Below, piece by piece: positions 1,141-14,094 of a stretch of 37,221 nt of DNA (its first letter is position 1; each line of letters begins with the position of its first letter). A program made the position numbers and the translations under genes. The notes beneath the pieces are model-generated. The model saw only the letters and a list, made by a program, of their open reading frames with translations. It was not told the DNA's origin and made no database searches. Source of the stretch: Gammaproteobacteria bacterium (GTDB lineage Bacteria > Pseudomonadota > Gammaproteobacteria > GCA-001735895); assembly GCA_024686195.1 (NCBI GenBank), contig JAIBDO010000005.1, positions 1-37,221 of the forward strand. The letters run 5' to 3'.

Positions 1141-1962
1141 ATGTTTCGTCGATTATCACGGTTACCGATTGCCTTACTGGTCACATTACTCGCTTCCACT
1201 CCGCTTCAGGCTGCTGATCCGGCATTAAGACTGGCGACGACCACCAGTACCGCCAATTCCGGATTGATGGACTTCCTGCTACCCCGATTCACCGCGGTAA
1301 CGGGATTCGAAGTGCACTTGATCGCGGTCGGCACCGGCAAGGCCCTGCGTCTCGGACGCGAAGGCGACGTCGACGCCGTGCTGGTGCATGCACGCCAGGC
1401 TGAAGACAAATTTGTCGCGGATGGGTATGGCGTCGATCGCGCTGACGTCATGTATAACGATTTCATCATCGTCGGCCCCGAATCAGACCCGGCCGGTGTC
1501 GCCAGCAGCAACTCGGTTGCCGAGGTGTTCCGTAATATCCACGCCAGCAAACATCCGTTTATCTCCCGCGGCGATGACTCCGGGACCCACAAACGCGAAC
1601 TGATTCTGTGGCAGAGCGCAGCAAAAAACCCGGGCGGCAGCTGGTATCGTGAAGTCGGCCAGGGCATGGGTAAAACCCTGCAAATTGCCAACGAGGTAGA
1701 CGGATATACCATAACCGATCGTGGCACCTGGCTCGCCTACCAGTCCAAGCTTGATATCAAACTGCTATACGCAGATGACCCGCCACTTTTCAACCCTTAC
1801 GGAATTATCGCGGTCAATCCGGCTCGACATACAGACGTCAACTACAAAGGCGCCAGTAAACTGATCCAGTGGATGATCTCACCCGAGGCGCAGAAAATGA
1901 TCGGTGAATTCAAGATCAGGGGACAACAACTGTTCGTGCCGTCAGCGGTTAGCGGCAACTAG
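1141..1962 (+). CDS. tupA: Tungstate ABC transporter, periplasmic binding protein TupA
   Basis: A 273-residue secreted binding protein that captures tungstate in the periplasm and delivers it to TupBC. Residues 1-24 form a Sec signal peptide (RRLSR, then a hydrophobic core, cleavage near LQA-AD). The mature N-terminus carries LATTTSTANSGLMDFLLP, the TTTST-SGL oxyanion motif of TupA proteins, followed by G-x-G-KALRLGREGDVDAVLVHAR, FISRGDDSGTHKRE and YTITDRGTWLAY, all typical of TupA rather than ModA or WtpA. It heads a five-gene run (tupA-tupB-tupC-mobA-mobB). The start has no obvious Shine-Dalgarno sequence, but the signal peptide fits this ATG. Specificity for tungstate over molybdate is inferred from family and from the aor operon nearby. 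Confidence 0.92.
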   Translation: MFRRLSRLPIALLVTLLASTPLQAADPALRLATTTSTANSGLMDFLLPRFTAVTGFEVHLIAVGTGKALRLGREGDVDAVLVHARQAEDKFVADGYGVDRADVMYNDFIIVGPESDPAGVASSNSVAEVFRNIHASKHPFISRGDDSGTHKRELILWQSAAKNPGGSWYREVGQGMGKTLQIANEVDGYTITDRGTWLAYQSKLDIKLLYADDPPLFNPYGIIAVNPARHTDVNYKGASKLIQWMISPEAQKMIGEFKIRGQQLFVPSAVSGN

Positions 1963-1964
1963 CT

Positions 1965-2666
1965 TTGGATATCCTGCTGGCTAGTTGTGCCGAGGCCTTT
2001 CGCTTGCTATTCAGCGGCGATCCCGAAATCTGGGAAATCATTGCGATTTCGTTCCGCGTATCCAGCCTCGCTATTTTGTGCGCAGTCCCCCCCGCCCTGG
2101 TCATTGCGTTTTCGCTCGCTTATGGCAATTTCTTCGGTCGACGTTTGTTGATTCTGCTGTTCAACACATTCCTATCGGTGCCGGCGGTGGTCATCGGCCT
2201 GACCCTGTTCATCGTATTGTCGCGCCAGGGGCCACTCGGCGACTTCAAACTGTTGTTTACGCAGACCGCTATGGGTTTAGGTCAATTTCTGCTGTGCCTG
2301 CCGATCCTGGTCTGTATGGTGCATGTTGCGCTGCAAGCTGCCGATCGCGCGGCCTGGGAAACTGCTCGCACGCTGGGCGCGAGTCGAGTGCGGGCGTTTT
2401 TCACCGTGCTCTTTGAAATTCGCTTCGGGTTGATGGCCGCATTGCTCGCCGGCTACGGGCGCATCATTTCAGAAGTCGGCGCGTCGATGATGCTGGGCGG
2501 AAATATCGCCCATTACACGCGAAACATACCGACCGCGATTGCGCTCGAAACCAGCAAAGGCGCTTTCGCCGAGGGCATAGCGCTGGGCATCGTCCTGTTA
2601 TTTCTCGCCTTGATGGTCAATGCACTGTTGCAGTACGTACAGGGAAAAGGCAGTATCAACCCATGA
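1965..2666 (+). CDS. tupB: Tungstate ABC transporter permease TupB
   Basis: A 233-residue inner-membrane permease with about five or six hydrophobic segments. It contains the binding-protein-dependent permease EAA-type loop (AWETARTLGASRVRAFFTVLFE), which contacts the ATPase. The segments FNTFLSVPAVVIGLTLF and GRIISEVGASMMLGGNI are typical of TupB/WtpB proteins. The start appears to be TTG at 1965, only 2 nt after the tupA stop, without a strong ribosome-binding site, so it is probably translated by coupling. The end overlaps tupC by 4 nt (ATGA). Confidence 0.9.
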   Translation: MDILLASCAEAFRLLFSGDPEIWEIIAISFRVSSLAILCAVPPALVIAFSLAYGNFFGRRLLILLFNTFLSVPAVVIGLTLFIVLSRQGPLGDFKLLFTQTAMGLGQFLLCLPILVCMVHVALQAADRAAWETARTLGASRVRAFFTVLFEIRFGLMAALLAGYGRIISEVGASMMLGGNIAHYTRNIPTAIALETSKGAFAEGIALGIVLLFLALMVNALLQYVQGKGSINP

Positions 2667-3379
2667 TTGAAACCCTCAACATCGGCTTTCGCAACATCGC
2701 CAAACGCTATGGCAGTAACCTGGTGCTGGATGGCGCCAGCATCGATATCAGCAGCCACAACTGCATTGTCATCACCGGCAAAAATGGCGCTGGCAAGACG
2801 ACACTATTGCGCATCATTGCCGGCCTGGAGAAACCAGACAGTGGTGACATCCTGATCGACGACGCAGATGCTGAACCCTGGCGCAAGCAACGCAAACGGC
2901 TGTTGAAGTCGGTGATGTACCTGCACCAGCAACCTTACATGCTGTCCGGCAGCCTGCGCCGCAACATCGAATACGCTGCGCGCCTGAACCCGGGCATCGC
3001 AGATCGTGCCGCCAGCGTTACCAGGGCGATTCACTGGGCCGGGCTCGAGGGCCTCGAAACACAGTCTGCCACTTCCCTGTCGGGTGGTCAGAAACAGCGA
3101 GTGGCGCTGACACGTGCGCGCCTGCGCGACCCCCAGATTCTGCTACTCGATGAGCCCACTGCCAATCTGGACAATGAAAGTCGAGCACGCACTTTACAGA
3201 TGCTGCGTGAATTCTGCGCCAGTGGCACGGCCATCGTCATTGTCACCCACGACCCTGAAGTGTTTGATGAACTGGCAACGCACAAACTGCAATTGCTGGA
3301 TCACCGCATCCACACTGAAACCGGTAGCAGCCCGGATGTCATCGAGCTGGAATCGGCACGCCATTCCAGGCAGCGATGA
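2663..3379 (+). CDS. tupC: Tungstate ABC transporter ATP-binding protein TupC
   Basis: A 238-residue cytoplasmic ABC ATPase powering tungstate import. Visible motifs are Walker A GKNGAGKTT (about residues 39-47), the Q-loop region YLHQQPYML, the signature LSGGQKQR (about 139-146), Walker B ILLLDEPTANLD (about 159-170) and the switch histidine in IVIVTHDPE. It lacks the C-terminal TOBE/Di-MOP oxyanion-sensing domain seen in some ModC proteins, so no built-in substrate regulation is visible. It overlaps tupB by 4 nt upstream and mobA by 4 nt downstream, so expression is coupled to guanylylation of the cofactor. Confidence 0.92.
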   Translation: MIETLNIGFRNIAKRYGSNLVLDGASIDISSHNCIVITGKNGAGKTTLLRIIAGLEKPDSGDILIDDADAEPWRKQRKRLLKSVMYLHQQPYMLSGSLRRNIEYAARLNPGIADRAASVTRAIHWAGLEGLETQSATSLSGGQKQRVALTRARLRDPQILLLDEPTANLDNESRARTLQMLREFCASGTAIVIVTHDPEVFDELATHKLQLLDHRIHTETGSSPDVIELESARHSRQR

Positions 3380-5748: not shown

Positions 5749-5776
5749 TTGAATGATTGCGCTGTTACTGGATAAT
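5749..5776 (+). promoter_or_regulatory. Candidate sigma-70 promoter of the DUF302 gene
   Basis: TTGAAT (5749-5754) and GATAAT (5771-5776) are separated by 16 nt and match the -35 and -10 consensus at 4 and 5 of 6 positions. Transcription would begin around 5783-5785, leaving a leader of about 27 nt with a GAGG ribosome-binding site before the ATG at 5812. The rest of the 256-nt gap back to 5556 holds the palindrome at 5727 and nothing else recognised. Confidence 0.45.
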
Positions 5777-5811
5777 TGGACGATTCCATCACTCCTATGA
5801 CGAGGCAAAAA

Positions 5812-6198
5812 ATGAGCTACACGCTTAACAGGTTAATCGAAAAATCGGATATCGATGCGGTAGACGCGCGCACCCGCGAGGCACTCGCCGCGCAGGGTTT
5901 CGGCGTCCTCACTGAAATTGACGTAACCGCAACCATGAAAAAGAAGCTGGATATCGATATGACACCCTATCGCATACTCGGTGCCTGCAACCCGAAAATG
6001 GCTCACCAGGCGATCGGCATGGAACCGCGCGTCGGTGCAATGCTGCCCTGTAACGTGATCTTGCGCCAGATCGATGCAGATGTTGAGGTCAGCGCTATCG
6101 ATCCGGTCGCATCGATGATGGCAATCGATAACGATCAACTCAAAGTTGTAGCCGCGGAAGTGCGGAAACTGCTTGCCGACGTAGTGGAATCGATTTAA
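5812..6198 (+). CDS. DUF302 domain protein
   Basis: A 128-residue protein of the DUF302 family, single compact alpha/beta domain, no signal peptide. Family features are the opening SYTLNRLIEKSDIDAVDARTREALAAQGFGVLTEIDVTATMKKK (a helix then a strand), the core YRILGACNPKMAHQAIGMEPRVGAMLPCNVILRQ, and a C-terminal helix. The GACNP and LPCNV cysteines are commonly conserved in the family. The track starts at a TTG at 5776; I use the ATG at 5812 because it has a GAGG ribosome-binding site at proper spacing and matches the usual family start. The gene appears to be monocistronic. Biochemical role unknown. Confidence 0.85.
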   Translation: MSYTLNRLIEKSDIDAVDARTREALAAQGFGVLTEIDVTATMKKKLDIDMTPYRILGACNPKMAHQAIGMEPRVGAMLPCNVILRQIDADVEVSAIDPVASMMAIDNDQLKVVAAEVRKLLADVVESI

Positions 6199-7127: not shown

Positions 7128-7871
7128 TCAGGAAGAACCACAGGCAGGACATGCGGGGTTTTTCGGCAACGTGACAGCTTGCCATTGCATCGATTGTGCA
7201 TCGAACAAAAGCAGCCGATTTATCAGCTCTTCACCCTGCCCTGCGAGCAACAGCAAGGTCTGCAACGCCTGCATCGTACCGATAACACCAACCACCGGGC
7301 CAAGCACACCTTCGAGCTCGCAGGATTCCTCATTGCCGTAGGCCTCGGTGTAAAGGCATTGGTAACAGGCGCTGTTTGCAGCCGGCTGGTAATTCATGAT
7401 CTGCCCTTCGAGACGGATAGAAGCTCCGGTCACCAGGGGAGTAGCCGTTTCGACGCAGCAACGGTTCACTGCGAAACGGGTCGGGTAATTGTCGCTGCAG
7501 TCGAGCACGATATCGACCGAATCGATAACCCGCTTCAACTCCTCTGTTTCCAGCTGATAGCCGATGACTTCGACGTCACAGTCCGGGTTGAGCGCAGCGA
7601 GAGTCTTCCGAGCGGAGTCAACCTTGTTCTCGCCGACCGACGCCTGGTGGTGGATTATCTGGCGCTGCAGGTTGGAGGTTTCGACGATATCGTAGTCGCT
7701 CAATATCAACTTACCGACACCCGCCGCCGCAAGATACATGGCAGCCGGTGAACCGAGCCCACCGAGGCCCACGATCAATGCACTGGCATCAAGGATTGCC
7801 TGCTGTCCGCTTTCACCAATCTGCGGCAGACGAATGTGGCGCGCATAGCGCTCCTTTTGCGCGGGCGTCAT
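7128..7871 (-). CDS. moeB: MoeB/ThiF-type sulfur-carrier adenylyltransferase of the aor operon
   Basis: A 247-residue E1-like enzyme that would activate the C-terminal glycine of a MoaD-type carrier with ATP so that sulfur can be loaded. Visible are the start MTPAQKERYARHIRLPQIG, the nucleotide loop GLGGLGSP (about 35-42), SDYDIVETSNLQRQIIH with the catalytic Arg, DCSDNYPTRFAVNR, and a Cys at 184 just before GVLGPVVGVIGTMQA. Two CxxC pairs (CYQC at about 169-172, CPAC at 241-244) would hold zinc. The track's longer version adds 62 unrelated residues that overlap the previous gene; the true ATG at 7871 overlaps that gene's stop by 4 nt. It is last of the aor operon. Because MoaD-like and aor genes precede it, I infer that it serves tungstopterin synthesis for AorB, possibly as the gene called aorE elsewhere. 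Confidence 0.9.
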   Translation of the reverse strand: MTPAQKERYARHIRLPQIGESGQQAILDASALIVGLGGLGSPAAMYLAAAGVGKLILSDYDIVETSNLQRQIIHHQASVGENKVDSARKTLAALNPDCDVEVIGYQLETEELKRVIDSVDIVLDCSDNYPTRFAVNRCCVETATPLVTGASIRLEGQIMNYQPAANSACYQCLYTEAYGNEESCELEGVLGPVVGVIGTMQALQTLLLLAGQGEELINRLLLFDAQSMQWQAVTLPKNPACPACGSS

Positions 7872-8197
7872 CCGCCGCCCTTGTGAAAATACTGATGGAA
7901 ACGATGGAAAAACTGTTCGCGCAAAACAGCGTCGGTAGCACCGAAGGTGAAGCGCACATCGAGCACGGGCAAGTTGAACAAACCAAGTTTGCGCGGTGGT
8001 TTTTGCGCCACGGTTATGGACAACTCCAGATTCGCGCCGGCTTGAGCGAGCGACCATTGATGGCGCGCCAGTTCACGGCACTGATAAGGTGATTTGTTGC
8101 CACTGAAGGGTCCGTTCAGGACCTTGCCGAACTCATCCGCGCCATAACCCATCTCGTAGGTGACGACAGGCGAATCGGGATCAGGATTGGTTTTCAT
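7868..8197 (-). CDS. Unrecognised 109-residue protein of the aor operon
   Basis: Not recognised as any named family. It is a soluble protein of 109 residues with no signal peptide and no membrane segment. The middle has one Cys in SGNKSPYQCRELARHQWSL. A likely beta-strand pair follows (ANLELSITVAQKP and LPVLDVRFTFGATD), and the C-terminus is rich in Phe/His (QFFHRFHQYFHKGGG). It lies 17 nt after the moaD-like gene and overlaps moeB by 4 nt, so it is certainly co-translated with them. The terminal Gly triplet is encoded by the purine-rich sequence that also acts as the moeB ribosome-binding site, so the tail may have no protein meaning. It does not contain MoaE, MoaA or MoaC motifs. A role in tungsten-cofactor assembly or AOR maturation is inferred from position only. 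Confidence 0.8.
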   Translation of the reverse strand: MKTNPDPDSPVVTYEMGYGADEFGKVLNGPFSGNKSPYQCRELARHQWSLAQAGANLELSITVAQKPPRKLGLFNLPVLDVRFTFGATDAVLREQFFHRFHQYFHKGGG

Positions 8198-8214
8198 CGA
8201 CTTCCTGCATCGGT

Positions 8215-8466
8215 CTAGCCACCCGCCACCGGGGGCCAGATGGAAACCACATCGCCTTCAACCAGCTCACGATCAGCACGCTTGTCAGCATCGACAAAAT
8301 GCCCATTGACCAACACGATGTGCGCCATTTTCTCAGGGATATGAAATTGTTCGACCAGACGATTGACGCGCAATCCGTCCTGCACGCTGATTTCGCGCCG
8401 GTGACGGCTCTTGCCCGGGGGCAGGTATTGCATCAGGGATGCGTAGAATTCGATATTGATCTGCAT
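8215..8466 (-). CDS. MoaD/ThiS-like sulfur-carrier protein of the aor operon
   Basis: An 83-residue ubiquitin-like protein ending in PPVAGG, the C-terminal di-glycine that is adenylylated and thiocarboxylated. The fold order is typical: N-terminal strand MQINIEFYASLMQYLP, helix around VNRLVEQFHIPEKM, then HIVLVNGHFVDADKRADREL and GDVVSIWPPVAGG. It lies 35 nt after aorC and next to its presumed activating enzyme, the MoeB-like protein. A second MoaD is encoded after moeA at 13837; the two are clearly different in sequence, so this copy may be dedicated to the aldehyde oxidoreductase cofactor. It corresponds in place to the MoaD-like gene of aor operons elsewhere. Confidence 0.9.
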   Translation of the reverse strand: MQINIEFYASLMQYLPPGKSRHRREISVQDGLRVNRLVEQFHIPEKMAHIVLVNGHFVDADKRADRELVEGDVVSIWPPVAGG

Positions 8467-8501
8467 GAGAGTTCAACGGCTGCGAGCCGGTATGGACAGA
8501 A

Positions 8502-9755
8502 TCAACTGTACCCAAGTTCCTGGGTGCAGCCAACATAAGCTTCCATGATCGCAGTCGGATCCTGCATCAGGCGTTGCTTCCACACACCGAGATGAATCCT
8601 GGACTCGATCAGTCCACGCAGCACACCGATGTGCTGGGTCTTGCCAACGCTGCTGGCACCGACCAGGTGGTCACCGTCGAACTGCAGATTGATATACTGA
8701 TATTCCTCCGCATTGTACAACTGCGCACTCTCGCCACCTTCAACACCCATCCATAATCCAAAAGAGCAGGAAATCAGCCCGACAGTATCGAGCACGTTCA
8801 TGTTCAAGGTACCGTGATGGGCGCTACCCTGACCGGCCATGTTGAGCGCGGCAATTCGGCCATGGTCTGCCGCGGTTGGTTGAATAGCCTGCACCTCGTG
8901 TTTACCAGTGGAGAAATCGACACCCTGCGCCACGTCACCGGCGGCATAGATATCAGGCTCACTGGTTTGCATGGAGTGGTCGACAATAATCCCCTGATCC
9001 GTTTTGATACCGGTGCCTTGCAGCAGATCGATATTGGCTTTAACACCGGTTGCGGTAATCACCAGCGCGGCTGACAGCTTGCTGCCATCACTCAAACTGA
9101 CCTCAACCAGTTCACCCTCTGCCGCGGCAATACCATCCACGGTACAGGAACTGTGAACATCGATACCTTCTTTCTTACACCAACTTTCCAGCAGACCACC
9201 GGCATTTTCGTCCAGCATGCGCGGCACCATACGGTTGCCGGCTTCGACGACAGCCAGATTGATTCCGCGCTTGACCAGCGCTTCAAGGATAATACAACCG
9301 ATGAAGCCAGCACCGATCAGAACCACGTTGGAACCAGCTTGAGCCAGGCGGATAATGTTGCGCGCGTTTTCCAGCGTCCAGCAGGAATGCACCTGCGGCA
9401 AATCGAGCCCTGGAATGGGTGGGCTCACCGGATGTGAGCCGGTTGCAATTAACAGTTTGTCATAAGCGCGCGTACTGCCGTCAGCAAGATTAAGCTGTTT
9501 TCCAGCCGCGTCGATCTTGTCCACGCGCTGCTGCACAACTTCAATGTTCTGGGTCTTGAAGTGCTGATCAGGATCGCGCAGATAAGTACCCGACTCACCG
9601 ACGTTGTCGATCAGGTAGTAAGGGATAGCCATGCGCGAATAGGGTGGTTCGGGCTCGTCACCAATAATAGTAATGACTGCATCCGGGTCCGCTTTGCGCA
9701 GAGTTTCTGCCGCAACCACGCCCGCGGGACCGGCACCTATGATGATATGTTGCAT
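8502..9755 (-). CDS. aorC: AorC: FAD/NAD(P)-binding reductase subunit of aldehyde oxidoreductase
   Basis: A 417-residue pyridine-nucleotide-disulfide-type flavoprotein. The FAD loop GAGPAG is at residues 7-12 and the NAD loop GAGFIG at about 148-153; ATGSHP and DIYAAGDVAQG complete the two-dinucleotide fold. No CxxC redox-active disulfide is seen, so it is not a thioredoxin or lipoamide reductase; it resembles NADH-ferredoxin/rubredoxin reductases. In AorABC enzymes this subunit passes electrons from the ferredoxin-like AorA to NAD. It follows aorB after an unusually long 223-nt gap containing a hairpin and a terminator. The ribosome-binding site is weak (GAAGAG). Confidence 0.87.
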   Translation of the reverse strand: MQHIIIGAGPAGVVAAETLRKADPDAVITIIGDEPEPPYSRMAIPYYLIDNVGESGTYLRDPDQHFKTQNIEVVQQRVDKIDAAGKQLNLADGSTRAYDKLLIATGSHPVSPPIPGLDLPQVHSCWTLENARNIIRLAQAGSNVVLIGAGFIGCIILEALVKRGINLAVVEAGNRMVPRMLDENAGGLLESWCKKEGIDVHSSCTVDGIAAAEGELVEVSLSDGSKLSAALVITATGVKANIDLLQGTGIKTDQGIIVDHSMQTSEPDIYAAGDVAQGVDFSTGKHEVQAIQPTAADHGRIAALNMAGQGSAHHGTLNMNVLDTVGLISCSFGLWMGVEGGESAQLYNAEEYQYINLQFDGDHLVGASSVGKTQHIGVLRGLIESRIHLGVWKQRLMQDPTAIMEAYVGCTQELGYS

Positions 9756-9978: not shown

Positions 9979-11829
9979 TTAGAGTGACAGGCGTTGACGG
10001 GTTTCCTGCGGGATTTTGCCATCCGCAGTCCAGCCCCGTGCTTCGTAATACTGCGGCAGCATTTCGCCCAGTCGATTAACCTGACCCTCGGTCGGACCAC
10101 TCTTGATGATTTCCTTAAGCAGTCGCTTGGGCAACGTGTCGTCATCCGCGGTGAAACCGGCTGCCTCGTTGAACAGACGCTCCATGTTCCAGATGCGCTC
10201 ACCGGTCTCCAGGCAATTCTCCACGCTCCAGTCACCTTCACAGGCGGCGTCGATCTGTGGTGCGATGTTATCCATACCCCAGGCAAAGGTGGTGAACACA
10301 CACAACCCGGCCGAATCGACCAGTGCAGTGGCGTCCTGAAATGCCTTGACCAGTTCCGCCTTGCCATCGGTGTCGTTCATCTCGGTCTTGACTGGAATGC
10401 CCAGCACTTCTGACGCAATGGTGTAACCGCGCAGATGGCAGGCACCACGATTCGAAGTGGCGTAAGCAAGACCGATACCCTGAATGCCACGCGGATCATA
10501 AGCCGGGAATTCCTGGCCCTTGACCGTCATCGACAATTCCGGACGTCCGTACTTCTCACACAGACGCTTGGAGCCGAGCCCCAGATCTGCGGCAAACCCC
10601 TCACCGGTCACGAATTGCTCGGTGATTGCCACAAAAGCCTCGGCATTGCCGAATCTCAGTTCGATACCGCCGGTGTGTTCAGTAGTGATCACGCCATCTT
10701 CGAACATTTCCATCGCCGCAGCCACGGTGCAACCGTAGGTAATCGGGTCCATGCCGTCTTCGTTGCAGAGGAAATTGATATAGGTCAGCGCATCGAGATC
10801 GTCGACTCCGGTATCCGCACCAAGCGCCCAGGCTGCCTCGTATTCGAGACCACCAGAGTTACCCTGATACTGCGGCTTGTCCTTGACCGAGAAGTGCTCG
10901 GGATTGACCGTGGAAATACGTCCACAGGCAATGGTACAGCTGAAACAGGCGCCATTGGTGGTCAGATTGGCTTTGCCGTCGCTTTTGCGTGGCTCGGCCA
11001 TGGCTTCGGCCGAAATATTTTCAGCACCCTCAAAGCCGACGTCGCGCATATTGCGTGCGGGCAGCCCACCGACACCGTTGATAACGTTCATCAACACCTG
11101 GGTACCAAAAGCCGGCAAACCCTGTCCGGTAACCGCATTTTCGGCGAGCACCGCCTTGCCATCATTGGTGGCTGCCATGAACGCTTTGGAGTCATGGACG
11201 TTACCGATACCACCGGTGCCGCGCACCGCGACAGCCTTCAGATTCTTGGACGCCATCACCGTACCCACACCGGAACGGCCGGCGGCACGATGCTTGTCGT
11301 TCATGATTGCCGAATACAGGCAACCGTGTTCGGCAGTTCGACCGATACAGGCGATGCGCAACTGCGGATCCTGGTGGGTCTGGCGCACTATATCATCGGT
11401 TTCCCAGGCAGATTTGCCCCAGAGATGCTCGGCTGAGCGCAGCTCGGCCTTGTCATTCTGGATGTAAAGGTAGACCGGTTTAGCGGACTGACCTTCGAAA
11501 ATAATCATATCCCAACCGGCAAACTTCAGCTCCGCACCAAAAAATCCACCGGAATTGGAGCAGGCGATAGCGCCGGTAAGTGGGCTTTTGCAAATGACGG
11601 AATAGCGACCTCCGGTAGAGGCCATGGTGCCGGTCAATGGCCCGGTGGCCATGATCATTTTATTTTCAGCCCCAAGTGCATCGCAGGCCGGATCGACTTC
11701 TTCGGTCAGGTATTTTGATGCCAATCCACGTTGACCGAGATATTGATTCGCCCACTCCATGTTGAGTGGTTCGGAAGTACAGCTACCGTCTGAGAGATTG
11801 ACTCTCAGTATTTTTCTTGTCCAAGACAT
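9979..11829 (-). CDS. aorB: AorB: tungsten-containing aldehyde:ferredoxin oxidoreductase, catalytic subunit
   Basis: A 616-residue enzyme oxidising aldehydes to acids with a tungsten bis-pterin centre and one [4Fe-4S] cluster, the usual length for the AOR family. The N-terminal domain has RVNLSDGSCTSEPL, TGPLTGTMASTGGRYSVICKSP and SNSGGFFGAELKFAGWD, the family's pterin-binding core. Cluster cysteines are C295, C298 and C302 (CFSCTIAC) plus C510 (DSAGLCVF). DPRGIQGIGLAYATSNRGACHLRGY (about 445-469) is the other highly conserved pterin region. No signal peptide, so it is cytoplasmic. It follows aorA by 18 nt. The AorA/AorC neighbours place it with the Aromatoleum-type NAD-linked enzymes and not the archaeal monomeric type. 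Substrate range is not readable; these enzymes are typically broad. Confidence 0.95.
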   Translation of the reverse strand: MSWTRKILRVNLSDGSCTSEPLNMEWANQYLGQRGLASKYLTEEVDPACDALGAENKMIMATGPLTGTMASTGGRYSVICKSPLTGAIACSNSGGFFGAELKFAGWDMIIFEGQSAKPVYLYIQNDKAELRSAEHLWGKSAWETDDIVRQTHQDPQLRIACIGRTAEHGCLYSAIMNDKHRAAGRSGVGTVMASKNLKAVAVRGTGGIGNVHDSKAFMAATNDGKAVLAENAVTGQGLPAFGTQVLMNVINGVGGLPARNMRDVGFEGAENISAEAMAEPRKSDGKANLTTNGACFSCTIACGRISTVNPEHFSVKDKPQYQGNSGGLEYEAAWALGADTGVDDLDALTYINFLCNEDGMDPITYGCTVAAAMEMFEDGVITTEHTGGIELRFGNAEAFVAITEQFVTGEGFAADLGLGSKRLCEKYGRPELSMTVKGQEFPAYDPRGIQGIGLAYATSNRGACHLRGYTIASEVLGIPVKTEMNDTDGKAELVKAFQDATALVDSAGLCVFTTFAWGMDNIAPQIDAACEGDWSVENCLETGERIWNMERLFNEAAGFTADDDTLPKRLLKEIIKSGPTEGQVNRLGEMLPQYYEARGWTADGKIPQETRQRLSL

Positions 11830-11847
11830 GATTCATTACCTCCATTA

Positions 11848-12327
11848 TTACGCGGTGACTTCGGCGGAAGGCAAGCTTTTTGACGCCGAGGCGAGCATGC
11901 GATCGTAACCGGTCCAGTCGGCGTCGATGTAAGTGATGGCGTCGGTCGGGCAGGCAGCAGCACATTGCGGATCACCGCCACAGAGATCGCATTTGACAAC
12001 CTTGCCAGTACTTTGTGAATAATTGATCGTGCCGAACGGGCAGGCGATTGTGCAGACCTTGCAACCAACACACTTATCGTCCGATACCACCTTGGCGCCA
12101 GTGGCTGCATCGATGCTGATCGCATCGACCGGGCAGGCCCGCACACACCAGGCTTCATCGCACTGGGTGCAGGTGTAAGGCGCAAATCTCCCTTCATGAT
12201 GGAAGGTGAAAACCTTGATAAACGATCGTGACGGGTTGAACGTCCCAGTGTGCTCGTAAGAGCAGGCCATTTCACACTGGAGACAACCGGTACACTTGCC
12301 CGGATCGATGTGTAGGGATTTTTGCAT
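11848..12327 (-). CDS. aorA: AorA: ferredoxin-like electron-transfer subunit with four [4Fe-4S] motifs
   Basis: A 159-residue cytoplasmic iron-sulfur protein. Sixteen cysteines fall in four groups: C12-C15-C18-C22, C53-C56-C61-C65, C86-C89-C92-C96 and C113-C116-C122-C126, enough for four [4Fe-4S] clusters as in DmsB/HycB-like subunits. The ACP motifs (RACPVD, IACPFG, AACPTD) are typical. It is the first gene of the operon, directly before aorB, and should carry electrons from the tungsten site to AorC. In the Aromatoleum enzyme the equivalent subunit is known to stack into a filament decorated with AorB; whether this one does is unknown. Confidence 0.93.
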   Translation of the reverse strand: MQKSLHIDPGKCTGCLQCEMACSYEHTGTFNPSRSFIKVFTFHHEGRFAPYTCTQCDEAWCVRACPVDAISIDAATGAKVVSDDKCVGCKVCTIACPFGTINYSQSTGKVVKCDLCGGDPQCAAACPTDAITYIDADWTGYDRMLASASKSLPSAEVTA

Positions 12328-12570: not shown

Positions 12571-13836
12571 ATGAATAACAAGATACCCCATCAACCCAGC
12601 TGTGCGGATCCTTTCGAAGAGGACATGATCAGCCTGTCCGAGGCGCTGACGCGAATCGAAGGGCGCGTAGTTCCAGTGCATGCCTGCGAACGCCTGCCCA
12701 TTCGACAATGCCTGAACCGGGTCAACAACGAAGCGGTCAAATCGCCGCTCAATGTGCCACCGTTACCCAATTCGGCAATGGACGGTTATGCGATTGCGAT
12801 CGACAGCCTGGTCGCAGACAGTATTGTCGAACTGGAAGACATTGGCACAGCCTATGCCGGCGTTCCATTTAAGCAGGACTGCGGGCCGGGACAGTGTGTG
12901 CGCATCATGACCGGCGCACTTATACCTGCCGGCACCGATACCGTCGTCATGCAGGAGCAGGTCCAGGTCGGCGCAGATGGCAGGATTCGAATTGATTCCG
13001 ATCATCGCGGCGGCCAGAATATTCGCCAGGCCGGTGAAGACGTACAGCAGGGCGAAGTCGTAATTGAGGCCGGTGTGCGCCTGAGCCCTGCCGACCTCGG
13101 TGTACTGGCCTCACTTGGCCTTTCGCAGCTGCAGGTCAAGCGCAAGCCCGTGGTCGCCTTTTTTTCTACCGGCGATGAACTGATGTCGGTCGGTAAGCCG
13201 CTCGAGCCCGGCATGATTTACGACAGCAACCGCTACAGCCTGTACGGGATGCTGGCACAGCTGCCCGTCGACGTTCTCGACCTCGGCGTGGTGCGCGACA
13301 ATCCCGAAAGCATGCGCGAGGTGCTGGCTGATGCTGCGGAACGGGCTGACCTCATTATCAGCACCGGCGGCGTATCCGTCGGCGAAGCCGACTACATAAA
13401 GCCCGCGCTGGAAGACCTCGGTAACACCGAGTTCTGGAAAATCGCCATCAAACCGGGGCGACCGCTGACCTTCGGCCAGATTGGCAGCAGCATCTTCATG
13501 GGCCTGCCCGGCAATCCGGTGGCGGTGATGGTGACCTTTAGTCAGTTTGTCGCGCCTGCTATCGAAGTATTGTCAGGCGCCAGCATGCGGCCACCGCGAC
13601 TGGTAACAGCACGTTCGCTGGAACGCCTGCGCAAGAAACCCGGGCGTACCGAGTTTCAACGTGGCATAGCCGTCCTCGATGAAAACAACCGATGGCAGGT
13701 CGGCAGAACTGGCAAGCAGGGCTCCGGGATACTAACCTCGATGAGCCGCGCCAACTGCCTGATCGTGTTGCCCGACGACAATGCCGGCGTCGAACCCGGC
13801 GATGAAGTCAGCATTCAGTTCCTCGACTGGGCATAG
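12571..13836 (+). CDS. moeA: Molybdopterin molybdenum/tungsten transferase MoeA
   Basis: A 421-residue cytoplasmic enzyme that inserts molybdate or tungstate into adenylylated pterin. It has LPNSAMDGYAIA (about 66-76), RIMTGALIPAGTDTVVMQE, FFSTGDELM, YDSNRYSLYGML, ISTGGVSVGEADYIK and FMGLPGNPVAVMVTF, all family signatures in normal order and spacing. An extension of about 20 residues precedes the usual start region (MISLSEALTRI at about 19), so a later Met at residue 19 is an alternative start. It is divergent from aorA and contiguous with moaD. Tungsten use is inferred from neighbours; many tungsten users have two MoeA versions, but only one is here. Confidence 0.93.
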   Translation: MNNKIPHQPSCADPFEEDMISLSEALTRIEGRVVPVHACERLPIRQCLNRVNNEAVKSPLNVPPLPNSAMDGYAIAIDSLVADSIVELEDIGTAYAGVPFKQDCGPGQCVRIMTGALIPAGTDTVVMQEQVQVGADGRIRIDSDHRGGQNIRQAGEDVQQGEVVIEAGVRLSPADLGVLASLGLSQLQVKRKPVVAFFSTGDELMSVGKPLEPGMIYDSNRYSLYGMLAQLPVDVLDLGVVRDNPESMREVLADAAERADLIISTGGVSVGEADYIKPALEDLGNTEFWKIAIKPGRPLTFGQIGSSIFMGLPGNPVAVMVTFSQFVAPAIEVLSGASMRPPRLVTARSLERLRKKPGRTEFQRGIAVLDENNRWQVGRTGKQGSGILTSMSRANCLIVLPDDNAGVEPGDEVSIQFLDWA

Positions 13837-14094
13837 ATGATGGCCAAAATCCTCTATTTTGCGAGTCTTGCGGAAACTCTCGGGTTGAAGTCGGAACAAC
13901 TTGAACTCCCCGTCGATTGCCAATCGGTCGCCGAGCTGGTGGCGCTGCTGCGCACACGTGGCGAGCCATTTGACGGCACCTTTGATGGTGCGACGCGGGT
14001 TCTGGTTGCGGTCAACCAGGAAATGGGGGATAGCGATATGCCAATCGGCGACGGCGACGAAATTGCCTTCTTCCCGCCGGTCACCGGCGGCTGA
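13837..14094 (+). CDS. moaD: Molybdopterin synthase sulfur-carrier subunit MoaD
   Basis: An 85-residue ubiquitin-like protein ending FFPPVTGG, the classical MoaD terminus. MMAKILYFASLAETLGLKSEQLELP and VLVAVNQEMGDSDMPIGDGDEIAFFPP match MoaD closely. The start codon follows the moeA stop with no gap; two ATGs in a row (13837, 13840) are possible. Its partner MoaE is not in the window. It is the second MoaD-type gene here and looks more like standard MoaD than the one in the aor operon. The 131 nt after it contain nothing recognised. Confidence 0.92.
   Translation: MMAKILYFASLAETLGLKSEQLELPVDCQSVAELVALLRTRGEPFDGTFDGATRVLVAVNQEMGDSDMPIGDGDEIAFFPPVTGG

Follow-up and report, generated by a model that had tools for sequence, protein, structure and literature searches.

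Gene organization of the tungsten island

The window analysed here (the whole stretch of 37,221 nucleotides from contig JAIBDO010000005.1 of a gammaproteobacterial assembly, GCA_024686195.1) is in its entirety a tungsten island, which contains genes for a TupA/B-like transporter as well as mobA, mobB, moeA, a canonical moaD, and moaB (Table 1). Its aor operon is arranged in the order aorA, aorB, aorC, a MoaD-like gene, the gene under study (hereafter the AorE-family gene), and moeB. The AorE-family gene starts with ATG and stops with TGA, and the ATG of moeB lies within this stop codon (GGATGA), generating a 4-nt overlap, whereas 17 nt separate the gene from the MoaD-like gene, the stop of which ends at 8215. 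Both distances, which had been given in the initial annotation, were confirmed from the coordinates, with the minus strand as the coding strand.

Table 1. Features of the aor operon and associated genes in the window.
Feature	Position	Strand	Remarks
AorE-family protein, 109 aa	7868..8197	-	Predicted beta-alpha-beta4-alpha domain and disordered C-terminal tail
Lys-Gly-Gly-Gly tail codons	7871..7882	-	Followed by TGA (7870-7868), which overlaps the moeB ATG
aorD-like gene, MoaD/ThiS-family carrier	8215..8466	-	Ends PPVAGG; under the curated cut-offs of canonical moaD models
MoeB/ThiF-family adenylyltransferase, 247 aa	7128..7871	-	Best full-length ThiF match of the assembly
aorC, FAD/NAD oxidoreductase subunit	8502..9755	-	
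aorB, tungsten aldehyde oxidoreductase large subunit	9979..11829	-	
aorA, 4x[4Fe-4S] polyferredoxin subunit	11848..12327	-	
Tungstate ABC transporter genes (TupA-like, TupB-like, ATPase)	1141..3379	+	TupA and TupB models matched without reaching their equivalog cut-offs; ATPase named from its location
moeA and separate canonical moaD	12571..14094	+	moaD exceeds the TIGR01682 cut-off

The 91% complete assembly contains no strong full-length ThiF match other than the MoeB of the aor operon, which may therefore serve the whole cofactor pathway. A 140-aa ORF without an NCBIfam match is located close to the aor operon (positions 5776-6198, plus strand), and an Rfam search of the window returned 0 matches, and thus no Moco or Tuco riboswitch. 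The source genome contains a second AOR (G000:C4; L161), which is accompanied by its own MoaD-like gene (ending PPIKGG) and lacks aorC and aorE.

Identification of the gene as aorE

As a single query, the window protein gave no match of note in Pfam, NCBIfam, PHROGs, PADLOC, or the PDB sequences. The initial statement that it contains no motif of MoaE or of a known chaperone was thereby borne out for Pfam and NCBIfam. An identity as MoaD or a known chaperone was rejected, as was an identity as MoaE, because no Pfam/MoaE match was found and the genome encodes its own MoaE elsewhere (G000:C184; 126 bits).

A search with AorB identified a genome in which AorB is 100% identical to that of Aromatoleum aromaticum (PDB 8c0z). 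The operon in this genome consists of aorA, aorB, aorC, a MoaD-like gene (ending PPIAGG), and an AorE-family gene (ending MQRGGG), and the family profile matches the gene at the AorE position with E=2e-15. Because the gene order is the same and the profile matches in this locus, the window protein is, as judged from sequence, an orthologue of AorE, AorE itself being identified by gene order in the 8c0z-identical locus. In A. aromaticum, aorD and aorE have been reported to lie in an operon with aorABC, and both products were called MoaD-like putative maturation factors (PMC6365974); AorE of strain EbN1 is listed as WP_041646407 (PMC10413684). The window protein resembles EbN1 AorE in its position after aorC and the MoaD-like aorD, its membership in the same profile family, and its GGG end. 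It differs in its low identity (17-33% among distant members) and in its association with moeB, which overlaps the gene in the window, whereas no moeB is present within the 10 kb examined in EbN1. The initial annotation had proposed an undescribed part of AorB maturation: the tie to aor operons stood, but the gene had already been named AorE (PMC6365974, PMC9295118), and the published expression test pooled AorE with AorD and never used AorE alone.

Conservation of the family and of its glycine tail

Twenty related loci (53-88% identity) retain the gene among aor genes where the contigs allow, and purifying selection is acting on it (dN/dS 0.05 against the nearest relative); the ORF is therefore more than a chance ORF. 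A profile made from close relatives detected distant members in 23 of the 369 genomes surveyed in the class, and a broader profile detected members in 40. Within one family of the class, 72 of 251 genomes carry an AorE-family gene. The members share EMG...EF...L in the N-terminal part, R..G/A.L.LP..V.F in the central part, and K/R-GGG at the end. The window protein contains a single Cys (C40) and ends HKGGG, as had been noted initially (one Cys and a KGGG end). A catalytic Cys common to the whole family was rejected, because C40 is replaced by A or L in some relatives.

When counted with a profile lacking the last six columns, the GGG end was present in 105 of 107 distinct closed ORFs of the family, nearly always after a basic residue. 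One of the two exceptions comes from a fragmentary genome in which the tail of the MoaD-like neighbour is also altered, and the other is an unlinked second copy. The initial annotation had considered that the glycine tail might be a by-product of the ribosome-binding site of moeB. An overlapping ATG is present at the gene end in only 19 of the 105 GGG-ending members, however, and all four Gly codons are used at each GGG position, so this explanation was rejected: the tail is conserved as protein.

Two additional copies are of note. In G345 (contig C11; L122, positions 7931-8557), two AorE-family copies are located in tandem, each ending GGG. An unlinked second family copy in G008 (contig C160; L121, positions 7360-8205, minus strand) resides within a long ORF, has the tail KGLG, and is perhaps decaying or repurposed.

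Predicted fold and remote similarity to 1v8c

AlphaFold2 models of two different members both have the topology beta-alpha-beta4-alpha (pLDDT 85 and 87) and a disordered tail. In Foldseek searches with both models, PDB 1v8c ('MoaD related protein' of Thermus thermophilus HB8) ranked second, behind a KA1 domain, with a probability of 1.00, a TMq of 0.52-0.55, and an E-value of about 0.01, which is not significant alone. The same protein was also the best PDB sequence for the family profile (HMMER, E=0.013 and then 0.0033), and hhalign aligned the family with it at a probability of 95% (87% without Gly). None of 2000 shuffles scored as high as the 1v8c match, with or without the tail. The 1v8c sequence used agrees letter for letter with the alignment over 168 residues.

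1v8c is composed of a ThiS/MoaD-like domain ending PPVAGG, directly followed by a DUF1952 domain ending RGGG, and it is this second domain that matches the family by both profile and fold. DUF1952 (PF09189) was detected at E<=1 in 8 of 77 relatives (best 1.3e-5); the window protein gave no PF09189 match and so does not reach the Pfam gathering score (22 bits). These results support a distant homology, predicted from profiles and models, between the AorE family and the C-terminal DUF1952 domain of 1v8c, which falls short of formal membership. 1v8c would then be a natural fusion of a MoaD-like and an AorE-like protein. The initial description of the protein as unrecognised thus holds for single-sequence searches, whereas profile and fold searches reach DUF1952 and 1v8c. 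The DUF1952 domain of 1v8c is fused behind the MoaD-like domain, whereas the window protein stands alone; because the GG of the MoaD-like domain is internal in the fusion, the two domains cannot act exactly like two free proteins.

AorE shares several features with MoaD/ThiS carriers and the ThiS-like 'WorX' (PMC13328260, PMC1779556), in that it is small, is encoded in AOR operons, and has a glycine motif at its C-terminus, and the Gly-Gly end typical of MoaD/ThiS carriers is included in the GGG found in 105 of 107 family members. In contrast to these proteins, AorE matches no ThiS/MoaD profile, is not predicted to have a beta-grasp fold, and was found only with AorABC-type enzymes in the 369-genome survey. 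Contrary to its published description, AorE is not MoaD-like, either by sequence or by predicted fold.

Restriction of the family to AorABC operons

Among the 369 genomes, AORs were found in 52, AorE-family members in 40, and both in 36 (hypergeometric P=7e-33, uncorrected for phylogeny), and the four carriers without an AOR represent short, fragmentary, or weak matches. The co-occurrence with aor genes raised in the initial annotation therefore extends across genomes, and the homologues do not lie mostly outside aor operons. When the AORs were divided at 435 bits, a threshold picked after the data were seen, an AorE-family gene was located within 10 kb of 31 of the 49 top-scoring AORs versus none of the 35 lower-scoring AORs. 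Most of the 18 top-scoring AORs without the gene nearby are truncated by the end of their contig; in one case the sequence is masked, and in five the gene lies on another contig. Two nearly complete genomes (G254 and G332) contain aorABC and a MoaD-like gene with no detectable AorE-family member; AorE is therefore either not strictly required or diverged in them. The 20 loci fetched for the lower-scoring AORs contain neither aorC nor an AorE-family gene, and in most of them a MoaD-like sequence is present, either as a separate gene or as a tail of the AOR. Both situations occur in G345, in which one AOR is accompanied by aorC and an AorE-family gene and another by neither. In the 369-genome survey, the AorE family accompanies only NAD-linked three-subunit AorABC enzymes. 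The AorABC type has been published as 'Class III WOR', and the accessible part of that AOR/WOR classification names only the ThiS-like WorX as an accessory protein.

A plasmid collection that includes AORs (of Azospirillum, haloarchaea, and Thermus) yielded no AorE-family member by tblastn with the queries tried. The Azospirillum plasmid AOR loci examined contain a MoaD/ThiS gene and no aorC, and no MoaD-like gene lies next to the divergent AOR on Thermus pTT27.

In L146 and L151, the MoaD-like gene and the AorE-family gene are kept together on the other strand or 8 kb from aorABC. This joint location away from aorABC and the fusion in 1v8c suggest that the MoaD-like protein and AorE form a working pair. 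In L133 and L131 (G062 and G066), the family gene and the aorABC-MoaD genes are located on different contigs of the same genome. In L116 and L117 (G085 and G209), genomes in which no AOR was found, a MoeB-like gene lies near a truncated or broken remnant of an AorE-family gene.

Published activity data

Published activities were 4.5 U/mg for aorABC, 16 with aorDE, and 85 with aorDE and extra tungstate, and the W contents in the same series were 1.06, 0.39, and 1.52, apparently from single preparations (PMC9295118). The activities per W computed from these values are about 4, 41, and 56 U/mg per W. The approximately tenfold gain per W with aorDE suggests that the cofactor is more fully completed and not that more metal is present, and a simple role in metal insertion is unsupported, because the W content fell from 1.06 to 0.39 with aorDE when no tungstate was added. 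Since AorD and AorE were added only together, the effect on activity may be that of AorD alone.

Proposed role of AorE

How the tungsten cofactor of AOR enzymes is made and inserted is poorly known, and recombinant production of these enzymes depends on it. AorE has so far been treated as a MoaD-like extra. Its status as a separate family, its tie to AorABC, its near-universal GGG end, and the solved structure of a distant relative make it a testable target, and the likeness to 1v8c is a concrete lead on how the AorABC enzyme matures. Descriptions of the separate fold of AorE, the link to DUF1952 and 1v8c, the GGG tail, or the restriction to AorABC were not found in the open-access literature searched, an absence that is no proof of novelty.

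The role in AorB maturation proposed initially is retained in its simplest form: AorE is probably a dedicated maturation factor of AorB or AorABC that is paired with AorD and has its glycine tail as the working end, a reading we hold with moderate confidence. Pairing with the MoaD-like AorD is suggested by the genomic co-movement of the two genes and by the likeness to the single Thermus protein, and the conservation of the K/R-Gly-Gly-Gly tail points to this flexible segment as the working end. AorE would dock on AorD and on apo-AorB (or AorAB), and the tail may enter a narrow site and keep the cofactor or the active site in the correct state during completion or insertion of the tungsten-bis-pterin, much as the tail of MoaD enters MoaE. 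A function in tungstopterin sulfuration in general, also proposed initially, is unlikely: AorE does not accompany other AORs that have a MoaD-like gene of their own, and this function fits AorD better because MoaD-like partners accompany several kinds of AOR.

AorE might alternatively serve the AorC or filament side of the enzyme, through FAD loading of AorC or the docking of AorC/AorA to AorB, rather than the tungsten cofactor. AorE tracks aorC, whereas MoaD-like genes occur with several kinds of AOR, but the presence of aorC is confounded with the AorB clade. The phosphorus content rose from 5.2 to 8.9 with aorDE and Mg was not raised (PMC9295118), which could reflect more FAD, but these phosphorus values are higher than the total expected and apparently stem from one preparation each. 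Moreover, the activity gain was assayed on benzaldehyde with an artificial acceptor (PMC9295118), and the pairing and the Thermus fusion with a MoaD-like protein point to the pterin cofactor. We consider a role on the AorC side unlikely.

Another explanation is that AorE is a second carrier, in which MoeB or a housekeeping E1 adenylates the C-terminal Gly to form a sulfur-bearing thiocarboxylate or a conjugate, in spite of a fold that is not ubiquitin-like. This would account for the exact GGG end of 105 of 107 members, mostly after a basic residue as in many E1 substrates, for the location of moeB, which overlaps the gene in the window and adjoins it in several other lineages, and for the AorE domain owning the sole free glycine tail in the Thermus fusion. 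However, the predicted fold is not beta-grasp, most operons have no neighbouring moeB, and AorD in the same operon already provides a standard MoaD-type tail, making such a carrier quite improbable. A form of this reading in which MoeB or another E1 would chemically activate the C-terminus of this non-ubiquitin fold, or AorD would charge it, AorE would complete the tungsten cofactor of NAD-linked AORs as a second carrier, and the Thermus MoaD-AorE fusion would perform both steps in one chain, strikes us as very doubtful.

The least likely rival, to which we give hardly any credence, is that AorE replaces MoaE and forms an AOR-dedicated molybdopterin synthase with AorD: its gene comes directly after the MoaD-like gene, AorE resembles MoaE as the likely, sometimes fused, partner of a MoaD-like protein, and the Thermus fusion parallels MoaD-MoaE fusions such as MoaX (in the available part of PMC4326299), but the genome contains a normal MoaE and a separate canonical moaD, and AorE has no sequence match with MoaE, a different predicted fold, and few conserved polar residues other than a single Arg and the basic position in the tail.

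MoaD-like sequences may also be fused to AORs themselves. A divergent AOR type ending GGG or AGG was found at five loci (L245-L249, in G061, G014, G087, G265, and G332, respectively), and the C-terminus of the AOR in L245, the only one of this type tested, showed a weak ThiS match; judging from this match, AORs of the divergent type may carry a fused MoaD. A MoaD-AOR fusion in Azoarcus has been reported (Iyer 2006).
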